A DNA stretch of 64,000 nucleotides. Origin: Saprospiraceae bacterium (GTDB taxonomy: Bacteria; Bacteroidota; Bacteroidia; Chitinophagales; Saprospiraceae). The notes under the pieces were generated by a model, which was not told the origin of the DNA, searched no databases, and saw only the letters and a program-made list of their open reading frames with translations. The position numbers were made by a program, and so were the translations under genes. The stretch's first letter is position 1; every line of letters begins with the position of its first letter. This document shows, one piece after another, positions 34,268-39,663 of this stretch. The DNA lies in contig JADZFD010000074.1 in NCBI GenBank assembly GCA_020850225.1, positions 1-64,000 of the forward strand. Reading direction: 5' to 3'.

Positions 34268-34672
34268 TTAATTCAGGATAAAATCAGAGTGTAGCCTGAA
34301 TTCAGGAATGACAACTTCAAAAGGCTGATTATTATCCATATTCAGGAAGATATATGTTCCATACATTTTGCCCACGGATGTTTGCAGAAGACACCATGAA
34401 GTGTATTCGAAGGATTCATTCTGTGCTAATTCAGGCTGTTTGCCGACAACGCCATCGCCTTCAATCTCTCGTATGGATGTATTGGAATCGACTATATACC
34501 AGTGTCTTGATAATAATTTGACAGGGTCAAGTCCCAGATTGGTAATGACAATGTTATATGAGAATATATTTTTTCCGATTGCGGGATTGGACTCTGCACT
34601 TACATATTGAGGCTGTACTGTGATGCTGATATTGTTAGTCACCTCATTATATACATTGCTCTTGTCTGTCAT
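34268..34672 (-). CDS. apaG: ApaG-family protein
   Basis: Small Ig-like beta-sandwich protein (134 aa), the ApaG family, historically linked to cobalt/magnesium efflux and to diadenosine tetraphosphate levels but of unsettled biochemical role. The motifs HWYIVDS, EIEGDGVVGKQP and FEYTSWCLL are characteristic. Its ATG overlaps the gmk stop by four bases, so it is coupled to the yicC-gmk unit. Cytoplasmic, no signal peptide. Confidence 0.92.
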   Translation of the reverse strand: MTDKSNVYNEVTNNISITVQPQYVSAESNPAIGKNIFSYNIVITNLGLDPVKLLSRHWYIVDSNTSIREIEGDGVVGKQPELAQNESFEYTSWCLLQTSVGKMYGTYIFLNMDNNQPFEVVIPEFRLHSDFILN

Positions 34673-35259
34673 GTCTTTGATATTCCGTACAAAAATGTTT
34701 CAATTATATGTTCAGCTTCCATCAAGGAAATCTCCAATACATCATTAACAAGTACGATGTCAAAACTGTTTTCATACTCCATCTCTGCTTCAGCCTTTAA
34801 TATGCGTTTATTCAGACTTGCTTCTGTTTCCGTATTCCTGTTTATCAAACGCTCTTTTAATATTCCGAATGATGGTGGTCTGACAAAAACAGACATACAT
34901 CTTGGGCCATACAGGGATTTAATGTTCATTGCACCTTTTACATCTATATCAAAAACGATATGTTTGCCAATCTTCCAGATACGGTCGACCTCGGATTTTA
35001 GCGTACCATAATACTGGTCTTTATAAACTTCCTCCCATTCGACAAAAGCATCCTGATCAATTTTGTGCCTAAATTCATCGACACTCATAAAATAATAATC
35101 CCTTCCATCCACTTCATGAGGCCTGCGTACTCTGGTAGCTGCAGAAACTGAAAACTCCAGTTCACTGTATCTTGCCAAAAGATGCTTAACAATCGTTGTC
35201 TTGCCTGCTCCGGATGGTGCCGTAAAAACAAACATCTTACCTGTCATAATATCCGTCAT
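34669..35259 (-). CDS. gmk: Guanylate kinase
   Basis: Phosphorylates GMP to GDP (196 aa). The P-loop APSGAGKTT is at residues 14-22, followed by the GMP-binding SAATRVRRPHEVDGRDYYF and the lid region. Translation could begin at the ATG at 35259 or at a second one four codons later; both fit. It lies 17 bases after yicC and overlaps apaG. The yicC-gmk order is widely conserved. Confidence 0.96.
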   Translation of the reverse strand: MTDIMTGKMFVFTAPSGAGKTTIVKHLLARYSELEFSVSAATRVRRPHEVDGRDYYFMSVDEFRHKIDQDAFVEWEEVYKDQYYGTLKSEVDRIWKIGKHIVFDIDVKGAMNIKSLYGPRCMSVFVRPPSFGILKERLINRNTETEASLNKRILKAEAEMEYENSFDIVLVNDVLEISLMEAEHIIETFLYGISKT

Positions 35260-35276
35260 ATAGCTTATATGATGTG

Positions 35277-36152
35277 TTATAATATATTGGAAAGTTGCTC
35301 TTTTAATTTTTCAAGTTCATCTTTCATCATGACTACACATTGCTGTACATCAGAGTCATTGGCTTTGGCACCTATCGTATTGATTTCCCTACCCATTTCC
35401 TGAGCGATAAATGACAGTTTTCTTCCTTTTTGTTCGTCAGCTCCCTTCATTTCTTCCCTGAAATAATTACAATGTTGTCCCAGTCTTACCTTTTCCTCAT
35501 TGATATCGAGTTTTTCTATATAATACAGGATTTCCTGTTCATATCTGTTTTGATCCACCTGTTGTTTTACAGCGAATTCTTCCATGTTTTTACGGAGTCT
35601 CTCTTTGATTCTATCCAATCGTTGTGCTTCAAAAGGTTCAATACCTTTCAGATACAATTCTATATTACTTACACGAAGCAATAAATCTTCAGCCAATATC
35701 CGCCCTTCGTCCTGTCTGAATTTTTTAATATTTACAATAGCCTCATCTATGACACTGTTTACAATTTCCCACTCTTCATCTTCGGCAAGGCCCTCATTTT
35801 GTCCGATTACATTGGGTATCCTGAGTATAGATTGCAAAATATCACCGTCAGCAATATTCAATTCCCGGCGAATGGAATTCAATTCCTGATAATACTTAAT
35901 AAAAGCATCTCTGTTGATAAAGGAATTTTCTTCATCCGAAAAACCATCCAATGTAATAACCAGATCAAATTTGCCTCTCTGCAATGCATCAATTACTTTC
36001 TTGCGCAAATCAATTTCTCTGTCTCTGTATATGCTTGGTAGCTTACATCTGATTTCTGTAGATCTTGCATTTAGCGATTTAACTTCTACGCGTATTATTT
36101 TTCCGCTCATTTCGGCTCTGGCATGTCCGAATCCTGTCATGGATAATATCAT
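35277..36152 (-). CDS. yicC: YicC-family endoribonuclease / RNase adaptor
   Basis: YicC-type protein (291 aa). It starts MILSMTGFGHARAE, the N-terminal signature, and has the C-terminal domain with QEMGREINTIGAKAND. Family members in E. coli act as an RNA endonuclease or RNase adaptor affecting small-RNA stability. It is the first gene of the yicC-gmk-apaG unit and has a promoter box just upstream. Confidence 0.94.
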   Translation of the reverse strand: MILSMTGFGHARAEMSGKIIRVEVKSLNARSTEIRCKLPSIYRDREIDLRKKVIDALQRGKFDLVITLDGFSDEENSFINRDAFIKYYQELNSIRRELNIADGDILQSILRIPNVIGQNEGLAEDEEWEIVNSVIDEAIVNIKKFRQDEGRILAEDLLLRVSNIELYLKGIEPFEAQRLDRIKERLRKNMEEFAVKQQVDQNRYEQEILYYIEKLDINEEKVRLGQHCNYFREEMKGADEQKGRKLSFIAQEMGREINTIGAKANDSDVQQCVVMMKDELEKLKEQLSNIL

Positions 36153-36385: not shown

Positions 36386-36700
36386 ATGCGAAAGGCTGAT
36401 TTGGTTAATATTATTACAGAAAAAACAGGTGTGCCAAAAGTGGATGTCCTGGTGACTTTGGAAATGTTTTTTAAGGAAGTAAAAAACTCATTGTCTGAAG
36501 GAGAAAACGTTTACGTTCGTGGATTTGGTTCATTTATTATAAAGAAAAGAGCCAAAAAAATTGGTAGACACATCAAAAAGAATAAATCGATTGAAATTCC
36601 TGAGCATTTTATACCATCATTCAAACCTGCAAAAGTTTTTGTTGATCAGGTAAAATCCAATGTCACTTCCCTACCTGAAGATGAGGGCGAAGAAGATTAA
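36386..36700 (+). CDS. HU-family DNA-binding protein
   Basis: Histone-like protein (104 aa) of the HU/IHF fold: two N-terminal helices (KADLVNIITEKTG) and the beta-arm signature VYVRGFGSFIIKKRAKKIGR. It is about 14 residues longer than HU, with an acidic end (LPEDEGEED). A divergent spacer of 233 bases upstream contains ACGAACTTTGCGG, a near match to the -7 box. In Bacteroidota this gene often precedes the TPR / COX24 / RNase G genes, as here. Confidence 0.92.
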   Translation: MRKADLVNIITEKTGVPKVDVLVTLEMFFKEVKNSLSEGENVYVRGFGSFIIKKRAKKIGRHIKKNKSIEIPEHFIPSFKPAKVFVDQVKSNVTSLPEDEGEED

Positions 36701-36731
36701 TTGAATTATGTTATGTTTGCCTGTATAATAC

Positions 36732-37514
36732 ATGAATAAGCAACAAATAATAGCTTTAGGTGCAGCGTCAGTATTGTTTTTAATTTTGTTTTTTGGATTT
36801 GATATAATCCCTGAAAAACAAAAAGAACTTGAAAAGTCAAGAATGCTGAAAATTGAATCGACCAGTGTTGACAACCTGATAAAAGCTGCGTTTAAGGAAT
36901 TGGATAAATCCAAGTCATCCATGATTGAAGCAATGAATCATGATTTGGAAAAAACAGGAACCGACACAATCAAAAGAATTGAATTGCTCAAATCTATATC
37001 CGGTATCTGGTATGAATCAAAATTTCCGGCGATAGCAGGTTCTTATGCCCAGGAGATTGCAGAACTGGTAAAATCAGAGGAGTCCTGGTCCATAGCTGGA
37101 ACAACCTATGCTATTTGTGTTAAAAATGCAACAGAGGAAAAGACTAAAGAGTTTTGTTCCAAAAGAGCAATCCAATCATTTGAAAAGGCCATTTCTTTGG
37201 CTCCGGATGCAATTGAGCCCAGAATCAATTTGGCGATTTGCTATGTTGATAATCCGGACAAGGATAATCCCATGCAGGGTATTCTGATGTTAAGAGATCT
37301 GAATAAACAGCATCCAAAAAATGTTACTGTTCTGAACCAGCTAGGAAGACTGGCGTTGCAGACAAAACAATATGATAAAGCACTGGAGCGACTGGAAGCA
37401 GCCATTCAACTGGAACCCGACAACAAAAACACCAACTGCCTGTTAGCTACTGTATATCAGGAAACCGGTAATCAGGCTAAAGCAGATGAATACAATAAAA
37501 AATGTGTTAATTAA
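36732..37514 (+). CDS. Membrane-anchored TPR protein
   Basis: A 260-aa protein with one N-terminal membrane segment (about residues 5-24), a charged helical middle, and C-terminal tetratricopeptide repeats (about 140-258; for example KAISLAPDAIEPRINLAICY, NVTVLNQLGRLALQTKQYDKA, LERLEAAIQLEPDNKNTNCLL). It lies 31 bases after the HU gene and 20 before the COX24-like gene, so all three are probably co-transcribed. The family is conserved at this locus in Bacteroidota; function is unknown. The TPR part is predicted to be periplasmic if the anchor is uncleaved. Confidence 0.82.
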   Translation: MNKQQIIALGAASVLFLILFFGFDIIPEKQKELEKSRMLKIESTSVDNLIKAAFKELDKSKSSMIEAMNHDLEKTGTDTIKRIELLKSISGIWYESKFPAIAGSYAQEIAELVKSEESWSIAGTTYAICVKNATEEKTKEFCSKRAIQSFEKAISLAPDAIEPRINLAICYVDNPDKDNPMQGILMLRDLNKQHPKNVTVLNQLGRLALQTKQYDKALERLEAAIQLEPDNKNTNCLLATVYQETGNQAKADEYNKKCVN

Positions 37515-37534
37515 CTTATTAAAAAATTTTGAAT

Positions 37535-37624
37535 ATGCCTTGTGGTAAAAAAAGAAAACGTCATAAGATCTCTACGCATAAGCGTAAAAAAAGATTAAGA
37601 AAAAACAGACATAAAAAGAAATAA
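37535..37624 (+). CDS. AURKAIP1/COX24-domain protein (mS38-like), 29 residues
   Basis: A tiny, extremely basic protein: MPCGKKRKRHKISTHKRKKR followed by nine more mostly basic residues. It fits the AURKAIP1/COX24 domain, whose mitochondrial member mS38 is a ribosomal protein of the small subunit; Bacteroidota carry short versions. More than half of the residues are Lys, Arg or His, as expected for an rRNA-binding peptide. It lies 20 bases after the TPR gene, in the conserved HU-TPR-COX24-RNase G order. The assignment rests on sequence and context; the ribosomal role is inference from the family. Confidence 0.88.
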   Translation: MPCGKKRKRHKISTHKRKKRLRKNRHKKK

Positions 37625-38112
37625 ATTTGTCTGAAAACAGGACCAGTCTGTTATATGAATTATCTTACAGGATAGTCATATAACAGATTGGATATTGGCA
37701 ATCATGTCGCGGTAATTTATACGTAAAAGCATAACAAACTACTACCCAAAACTCCGGATTGAAACCATAAAAAAATAATAGTACAGAGATACTATCGTTA
37801 ATAATATACGAATTCTTCTGTATTTATCCCAGGTAAGACATTTATATAAATTTTCTGTCGTTTTACCTACAAATCGATCATATATCTGCTTTTACTCATC
37901 TACAACTTTTCGTGACATCATACTTCAGACTGTGTTTCTGTAGCTGCAGAAGATGTTTCTTCAGTTATGTCATTCTTATACAACAGTGTTTGAATTACAT
38001 TCAATTCATCATTAAGTATCATGACATGATAAATGCAATCTGTTTGTATTGCTGATTTCCTTTTAGGTTTAAAGTGAATACATAATACAAATAAAATGAC
38101 ACTTAATTAGTT
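37625..38112. other. 488-base gene-free leader before the RNase G gene
   Basis: No supported gene lies here. The strongest feature is a long hairpin at 37643-37691. The rest is AT-rich with short T-runs. If the HU-TPR-COX24 transcript reads through, this would form an unusually long intercistronic leader for the RNase G mRNA. A minus-strand frame of 34 codons (37918-38022) is too weak to call. Confidence 0.5.
37643..37691 (+). other. Long hairpin downstream of COX24-like gene
   Basis: A 16-bp stem (37643-37658 with 37676-37691) pairs completely, with a single G-U wobble, and the loop contains a further TATC/GATA pairing. It begins 19 bases after the COX24-like stop. No T-run follows, so it is not a typical intrinsic terminator; it could protect the upstream mRNA 3' end, attenuate, or be a processing site. 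Confidence 0.65.
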
Positions 38113-39663
38113 GTGGAAAAAGAATTAGTAATAAAATCATCCGTCGGTGAAGTAGAAATAGCACTGTTGGAAAATGGCCGGTTGGTTGAAATTCACAAGC
38201 AAAAAAATAATGACAACTCTACTGTAGGTGACATATTCCTGGCTAGTGTCAAAAAACTTATGCCGAGTTTGAATGCGAGCTTTATGGATATCGGCCACAG
38301 AAAAGATGCATTCCTGCACTATACTGACTTAGGTCCACAAATCAAATCCGTTGTAAAATACACCAAGGCTGTAATGAATGGTCAGTACAATCAGCCGTTG
38401 CTGGATGGTTTTGATCTGGAGCCTGATAATCCTAAAACAGGAAAGATTGATCAGGTTTTTAGTAAAAACGACCATGTTTTGGTTCAGGTACTAAAAGAAC
38501 CCATATCAACCAAAGGACCCAGGCTGAGTTGTGAACTGGCACTCGCAGGGCGTTATTTGGTTTTAACTCCATTTTCCAATATTGTTGCTGTTTCCAAAAA
38601 AATATCTTCATCAGAAGAAAGAAAAAGATTAAAGGTGTTGGTAGAAAGTATCAAACCTAAAAATTTTGGGATAATTGTACGTACAGCAGCAGAAGGAAAG
38701 AAGGTAGCCGATCTGCATCATGACATTAAGGAACTAGAGGTTAAATGGACATCTATACATACCCAACTCCTTCAGAAAAAAAATCCGGACAAGGTACTTA
38801 GTGAGATTGACAAAACTTCTACTATTCTCAGGGATATCCTGAATGACAACTTCAACAGAATCACCGTTGACAGCAGGGAACTCTATCTATCCATTAAAGA
38901 CTATCTCAATAGTATAGAACCGGATAAGGTCAAAATACTACAGCAATATAAGGGTTCCCGGATGATATTTGACCACTATGATATCAACAGGCAAATCAAA
39001 GCATCATTCGGAAAGACCTTTACTATGTCAAGCGGTGCCTACGTGGTCATCGAACACACGGAAGCCATGCATGTAGTCGATGTCAACAGTGGACCAAAAA
39101 TGATCAAAAGGGAACAGGAAGAAGCAGCCATGTCCGTCAATCTGGAAGCTGCTGAGGAAATAGCCAGGCAATTAAGACTCAGGGATATTGGCGGCCTCAT
39201 CGTCATAGACTTCATAGATATGCGAAATTCTGAAAATAAGGTCAGCCTGTATAACAAAATGCGTGACTTCATGTCAGGAGACAGAGCCCAGCATACGATT
39301 TTACCACTGAGTAAATTCGGATTGATGCAGGTTACAAGACAACGTACACGTCCCGAAGTACATATCGACACTTCAGAAGTATGCTATACCTGTAATGGAA
39401 CAGGCAAAGTAAATGCTTCCATATTAATACTGGACAACATCGAAAGAGACATTGACTACATATTACAGTCGAGGCCAAAAAGCAAAATTAAAATCCAGTG
39501 CAATCCGTTCATTTATGCTTACCTGAGAAGTGGATTACCAAGTATTCAGATGAAATGGTTGTTAAAAACCAAAAAGTGGATATCACTCACTTCCAATACA
39601 AGCTATCATCTGAATGAATATAAATTCTTTGATGAGTCTGATGACGAAATCAGATTCTCTTAA
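38113..39663 (+). CDS. rng: Ribonuclease G/E family endoribonuclease
   Basis: Single-strand endoribonuclease (516 aa) for mRNA turnover and rRNA processing. N-terminal S1 domain at about residues 38-100 (GDIFLASVKKLMPSLNASF), RNase H-like catalytic part with the Asp residues of VVDVNSG and IDFIDMR, and the Zn-link CYTCNGTGK that joins subunits. Length matches RNase G (489 aa in E. coli) rather than RNase E; there is no long C-terminal scaffold. The only in-frame start after the upstream stop codon at 38104 is GTG 38113, and no Shine-Dalgarno is present. Confidence 0.94.
   Translation: MEKELVIKSSVGEVEIALLENGRLVEIHKQKNNDNSTVGDIFLASVKKLMPSLNASFMDIGHRKDAFLHYTDLGPQIKSVVKYTKAVMNGQYNQPLLDGFDLEPDNPKTGKIDQVFSKNDHVLVQVLKEPISTKGPRLSCELALAGRYLVLTPFSNIVAVSKKISSSEERKRLKVLVESIKPKNFGIIVRTAAEGKKVADLHHDIKELEVKWTSIHTQLLQKKNPDKVLSEIDKTSTILRDILNDNFNRITVDSRELYLSIKDYLNSIEPDKVKILQQYKGSRMIFDHYDINRQIKASFGKTFTMSSGAYVVIEHTEAMHVVDVNSGPKMIKREQEEAAMSVNLEAAEEIARQLRLRDIGGLIVIDFIDMRNSENKVSLYNKMRDFMSGDRAQHTILPLSKFGLMQVTRQRTRPEVHIDTSEVCYTCNGTGKVNASILILDNIERDIDYILQSRPKSKIKIQCNPFIYAYLRSGLPSIQMKWLLKTKKWISLTSNTSYHLNEYKFFDESDDEIRFS

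Follow-up and report, generated by a model that had tools for sequence, protein, structure and literature searches.

Conserved linkage of the genes for ribosomal protein bS22 and RNase G in Bacteroidia and a putative boxA leader RNA in Flavobacteriaceae-like genomes

Throughout the Bacteroidia sample studied here, the gene for the small ribosomal protein bS22 stands immediately before the gene for RNase G, and in Flavobacteriaceae-like genomes the stretch between the two holds a boxA motif followed by covarying hairpins. We consider it somewhat probable that the cluster around this gene pair is a ribosome-production neighbourhood, the linkage of which serves shared expression with ribosome output, coupled through boxA in the Flavobacteriaceae, and does not reflect a protein complex; a putative role of the cluster in rRNA maturation is plausible. 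Newly found are the depth of the synteny, an apparently older unit of HU, TPR and bS22 genes and, outside the window, the boxA leader. The window is the whole stretch of 64,000 nt of a Saprospiraceae genome that was analyzed, the genes of which were searched against Pfam and NCBIfam.

The four-gene row and its products

The genes for HU, a TPR protein, bS22 and RNase G are consecutive on the plus strand between positions 36386 and 39663 (Table 1), in complete agreement with the row of four described in a first-pass annotation of this DNA. The source genome belongs to the Bacteroidota, and by RNase G its closest named match is a Saprospiraceae MAG (77%). A scan for Bacteroidetes promoters upstream of HU and of RNase G gave no match. 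The genes for YicC and guanylate kinase occur as divergent neighbors of HU only in the window's own family.

Table 1. Features of the bS22–RNase G locus and its surroundings in the window
Feature	Position	Strand	Basis
Guanylate kinase, divergent from HU	34669..35259	-	
YicC endoribonuclease, divergent from HU	35277..36152	-	PF08340 1.5e-37, PF03755 5.6e-34
HU-family DNA-binding protein, 104 aa	36386..36700	+	PF00216 1.2e-23
Membrane-anchored TPR protein, 260 aa	36732..37514	+	several TPR models; TM helix at residues 3-21
bS22, 29-residue small-subunit ribosomal protein	37535..37624	+	phmmer and profile matches
bS22–RNase G intergenic stretch, without the boxA/hairpin leader of Flavobacteriaceae-like genomes	37625..38112	+	
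Strong 22 bp hairpin just 3' of the bS22 stop, terminator- or stabilizer-like	37643..37691	+	folding
RNase G (Rne/Rng family), 516 aa, GTG start	38113..39663	+	TIGR00757 2.2e-131

The mini-protein, MPCGKKRKRHKISTHKRKKRLRKNRHKKK, is read from an ATG at 37535 to a stop ending at 37624 and has exactly 29 residues. A phmmer search against PDB sequences returned three matches only, 7jil_5 (2.5e-9), 9i5v_10 (4.4e-9) and 8fmw_V (7e-8), all of them ribosomal or carrying the family name and each aligned end to end; these are labeled as S22 or L38 of the Flavobacterium johnsoniae ribosome, as an AURKAIP1/COX24 protein and as Borrelia bS22, respectively. Residues 1-29 thus cover the full length of 7jil_5, a chain solved in the ribosome, and a bS22 profile found the protein as its sole match in the genome (2.8e-15). 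Judged by these alignments, the mini-protein is bS22, the mS38 analogue and an already known ribosomal protein, which bears out its earlier description as COX24/mS38-like. It resembles bS22, mS38 (AURKAIP1, COX24) and eL41 in length, sequence and basic composition and itself shows no notable difference from them, the novelty lying in its fixed gene neighborhood. None of the Pfam and NCBIfam models matched it, and such models may not suit proteins of 29 residues, so that annotation with those models alone would miss bS22. The protein, analogous to mS38 and eL41 and earlier seen in mycobacterial and Bacteroidetes ribosomes, occupies a pocket formed by h2, h27, h44 and h45 and contacts H68, a placement established in the ribosomes of Borrelia and F. 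johnsoniae (PMC10618245). By analogy, bS22 of the window would be a small-subunit protein filling the h2/h27/h44/h45 pocket of 16S rRNA.

Membership of the downstream gene product in the Rne/Rng family is evident from scores well above the cut-offs for TIGR00757 (438.6 vs. 325.95 bits) and PF10150 (320.4 vs. 25.5 bits) and from the conserved aspartate motifs, DVNSG (323) and DFIDM (366), and the CxxC zinc link, present as CYTC (424). It is the sole Rne/Rng copy found in the window genome and differs from E. coli-type RNase G in scoring below the NCBIfam equivalog cut-off. RNase G of E. coli produces the mature 16S 5' end (PMC3985665), and by analogy the trimming of rRNA, at the 16S 5' end beside h1/h2 among other places, and the initiation of mRNA decay are the most likely functions of the enzyme encoded in the window. 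The CxxC motif is found in none of 43 RNase G proteins from Flavobacteriaceae-like genomes, and among 125 other RNase G proteins 22 lack it, mainly members of the same order.

For the TPR protein, an AlphaFold model (pLDDT 94.5) shows the TM helix at residues 3-21 followed by a TPR-type helical solenoid, and structure searches, including a fold search of the PDB, returned generic TPR folds only and indicated no function. The protein matches the CcmH/CycH TPR family, a periplasmic family, above cut-off. Among 95 TPR proteins the N-terminal flank of the TM helix is more positive than the C-terminal flank in 70 and less so in 10, and several of the TPR proteins encoded upstream of bS22 outside the Bacteroidia start with zinc ribbons that precede the TM helix; the corresponding part in Bacteroidia comprises only a few residues. 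The charge bias and the zinc ribbons of the outgroups argue for an N-terminus in the cytosol and a TPR part outside, i.e., by prediction on the periplasmic side. Of the 40 class genomes, 13 lack the TPR gene and retain HU, bS22 and RNase G; the gene has been lost in Flavobacteriaceae-like genomes, where 35-134 nt separate HU and bS22. The best explanation is that the protein is an envelope-facing, dispensable accessory. The first-pass annotation had included it in the conserved pairing; a link between TPR and bS22 genes is real and looks older, on the other hand constancy of the TPR gene does not hold.

The gap between bS22 and RNase G measures 488 nt in the window and varies between about 115 and 1100 nt in its family. 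The stretch from 37626 to 37720 folds with -31.1 kcal/mol (z -5.25), and the relatives likewise fold strongly just after bS22 (mean z -3.0 vs. -1.1 beside RNase G, from mononucleotide shuffles). The hairpin looks like a terminator or a stabilizer. With a gap of this length and a hairpin of this strength the four genes need not form one transcript. A search of the window-family intergenic stretches for conserved sequence found none and no boxA, and Rfam gave chance matches only for the stretch of the window and its relatives.

Synteny across the Bacteroidota

In an even draw of genomes of the phylum, 40 loci stem from the class Bacteroidia. Directly or just upstream of RNase G, these feature bS22 in 40, HU (itself upstream of bS22) in 39 and TPR in 27 cases. 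A set of 80 named loci comprised Saprospiraceae, Chitinophagaceae, Sphingobacteriaceae, Cytophagales and Bacteroidales; one of them is cut at RNase G, and bS22 directly precedes RNase G in all 79 that could be evaluated, in four of these under a looser pattern only. The same adjacency was observed in 28 of 29 further loci of the window family (the remaining locus holds only 1.5 kb upstream), in 58/58 loci of the Flavobacteriaceae order and in all seven small genomes of 0.3-1.9 Mb, with some loci shared between these sample sets. Five endosymbiont-sized genomes (0.34-0.63 Mb; L277-L281) retain bS22 30-65 nt before RNase G; in the smallest of them HU is gone from the locus. The similarity of the mini-protein to structurally solved ribosomal proteins, together with the recurrence of the gene order in 40/40 class genomes, shows that the cluster is not a product of chance, and the pairing of mini-protein and ribonuclease, claimed as conserved at the outset, proved to be so.

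In 20 loci from other classes of the Bacteroidota, RNase G had neither HU nor bS22 as a neighbor. Conservation of gene order across the phylum, which the first-pass annotation had proposed to check, applies to bS22–RNase G throughout the Bacteroidia sample and fails beyond it (0/20 loci). A search of 20 genomes from these other classes located bS22 elsewhere in 19, preceded by HU in 13/19 loci and by a TM-plus-TPR protein in at least 10/19, with orthology of the latter assigned by position and domain order and not by a tree. The loci L305-L311, L314, L317, L319 and L322 have the TM-TPR gene before bS22 and mostly HU further upstream. Since HU and TPR precede bS22 without RNase G outside the Bacteroidia, HU–TPR–bS22 looks like an older unit, which RNase G probably joined in the ancestor of the Bacteroidia and then stayed with.

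A boxA leader RNA in Flavobacteriaceae-like genomes

In one family, designated f5 and called Flavobacteriaceae-like because its bS22 matches the F. johnsoniae chain, the motif GTTC[AT]TTGA[ACT]A was found between bS22 and RNase G in 46/46 loci (L056, L058-L067, L219-L253) compared to 8 of 8600 shuffled copies. Its distance is 27-85 nt from the upstream bS22 gene and 101-293 nt from the start of RNase G, and nine of its positions are invariant, with variable flanks. The motif recurs in three genomes of the family 114-148 nt before 16S rRNA, with 0-1 mismatch, and as an exact copy in the 16S-23S spacer. For comparison, the deletion of boxA in E. coli covers -147 to -133 (PMC10250234), and the E. 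coli consensus, GYTCTTTAANA (PMC5725501), has its free position at the same place as the family motif, GTTC[AT]TTGANA. By these sequence likenesses the leader motif is an rRNA-type boxA. Among 12 exact sites in genome G029, four belong to rRNA, one to the RNase G leader and five to coding sequence; the other two lie in a tRNA-tuf operon and in an intergenic stretch near a tRNA-Leu on the other strand. In the Flavobacteriaceae-like locus L287, the motif is present around position 2001 between tRNA-Thr and tRNA-Tyr of a tRNA-tuf operon. A misread -7 promoter box (TAnnTTTG) was rejected as an explanation, given the difference at the first two bases, the occurrence of A at position 5 and the presence of the motif within the rRNA spacer as well. 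Other families of the Flavobacteriaceae order lack the motif at 23/23 loci.

Downstream of boxA, three helices can be formed. RNAalifold, when applied to the raw leader alignment, yielded one helix only; the three-helix model was written by hand and then counted, and its choice of helices leans on the sequences of the very alignment from which it was drawn. With this model 74.5% of cells pair, helix 1 being the weakest with 63%. Two-sided changes occur in 20 of 25 pairs (98 cells vs. 40.5 in shuffles) and covariation amounts to 0.354 vs. 0.200 in shuffles, values from an alignment made without structure, the related sequences of which are not independent; every version with a slid helix scores lower. 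A model of the leader, R1, had one matching site, in every case immediately ahead of RNase G, in each of 12 genomes out of 13 from the family, including G310, G275, G279 and G170 from outside the set used for building it. It had no match in six genomes of other families, among them that of the window, and the window itself contains neither an R1 match nor the Flavobacteriaceae-type motif. The window family's own rRNA boxA could not be read, as a search for 16S rRNA in 61 of its genomes found none. Rfam, rne leader families included, gave no match for the leader of the Flavobacteriaceae-like genomes, which, on the evidence of boxA and covarying hairpins, appears to be a new leader RNA.

The leader can be compared with two known systems. 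Genes of the Nus factor complex that are controlled by boxA, suhB of E. coli and putatively rpsJ in other species (PMC5725501), are likewise tied to ribosome production and have a leader with a boxA of the rRNA type. The differences are the gene concerned (RNase G), the phylum, the conserved hairpins after boxA and the distance of 101-293 nt from the start, compared to the 50 bp covered by the survey in PMC5725501. With the RNase E 5' UTR elements, rne5 and others, it shares a long structured leader before an Rne/Rng-family gene, and it differs from them by its boxA and by the missing Rfam match.

Explanations for the conserved neighborhood

The first-pass annotation had suggested that mini-protein, RNase G and TPR protein share a role in rRNA maturation or ribosome surveillance at the membrane. 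On this reading, the TPR protein would anchor RNase G, together with ribosomes that carry bS22, at the membrane. Such an arrangement appears very improbable: although TPR domains bind proteins, the TPR–bS22 link looks older than that to RNase G and the N-terminal zinc ribbon of some outgroups could bind nucleic acid, the TPR part is predicted to lie outside according to flank charge (70/95), outgroup zinc ribbons and the CcmH/CycH match, few residues before the TM helix are available in Bacteroidia, Flavobacteriaceae-like genomes have dispensed with the TPR gene and kept the others, TPR–bS22 exists without RNase G outside the Bacteroidia and bS22 is set apart from RNase G by a strong hairpin. 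A membrane complex between the TPR protein and RNase G is not supported. Frozen synteny, in which descent or common promoters keep the genes together with bS22 and RNase G functionally unconnected, is unlikely to a lesser degree. It would fit the variable, often long gap with its strong hairpin in the window family and an HU protein without an obvious role in rRNA trimming, but the adjacency persists class-wide and in genomes of 0.34-0.63 Mb, gene order normally decays across such distances, and the boxA leader of one family is specific to RNase G.

The third alternative concerns the leader alone. In E. coli and Synechocystis, RNase E exerts feedback on its own gene through the leader (PMC10989929), and with this precedent the Flavobacteriaceae leader may be an element of RNase G autoregulation, cut by the very enzyme encoded downstream as in the rne 5' UTR of E. 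coli, in which boxA only keeps the polymerase going. The hairpins, flanking a conserved A/U-rich stretch around TAATCC, are in line with this possibility, the lack of any Rfam match, even to rne leader families, is not, and we regard it as somewhat doubtful. It is compatible with linkage to ribosome output and does not exclude it.

If linkage for shared expression with ribosome output is the correct reading, Bacteroidia would keep bS22 and RNase G together so that both track ribosome output. Gene order can, however, also persist for reasons other than shared expression. In the window, the hairpin that follows bS22 probably terminates or attenuates transcription from upstream ahead of RNase G and so counts against simple co-transcription of the two genes; boxA, where present, is located past this hairpin and hence cannot relieve it. 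BoxA recruits NusB-S10 (PMC10250234), and Nus factors repress E. coli suhB via a boxA in its 5' UTR (PMC5725501). In the Flavobacteriaceae, NusB/S10 on the boxA of the RNase G leader could correspondingly tune RNase G synthesis to rRNA transcription, with either activation or repression as the direction of the effect. We tentatively propose, as a possibility short of an even chance, that this leader is a new regulatory RNA on which NusB-S10 sets the level of an rRNA-trimming enzyme, within a bS22 cluster kept class-wide. If true, rRNA synthesis and rRNA processing would be joined by direct feedback in the Flavobacteriaceae, and bacteria other than Proteobacteria would have an enzyme of rRNA processing under the control of the antitermination signal for rRNA, a claim that is testable. 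Few studies seem to have dealt with rRNA maturation in Bacteroidota, and a limited search of an open-licence library found no paper on it.

The fixed neighbors of bS22 also provide a clue to its control. Proteins of the bS22/mS38 type are short and easily missed, and a constant neighbor, RNase G in Bacteroidia and HU–TPR elsewhere in the phylum, helps to find bS22. A different neighbor was seen in one genome from outside the Bacteroidia (L323), in which a Rho-like gene is located directly upstream of bS22.
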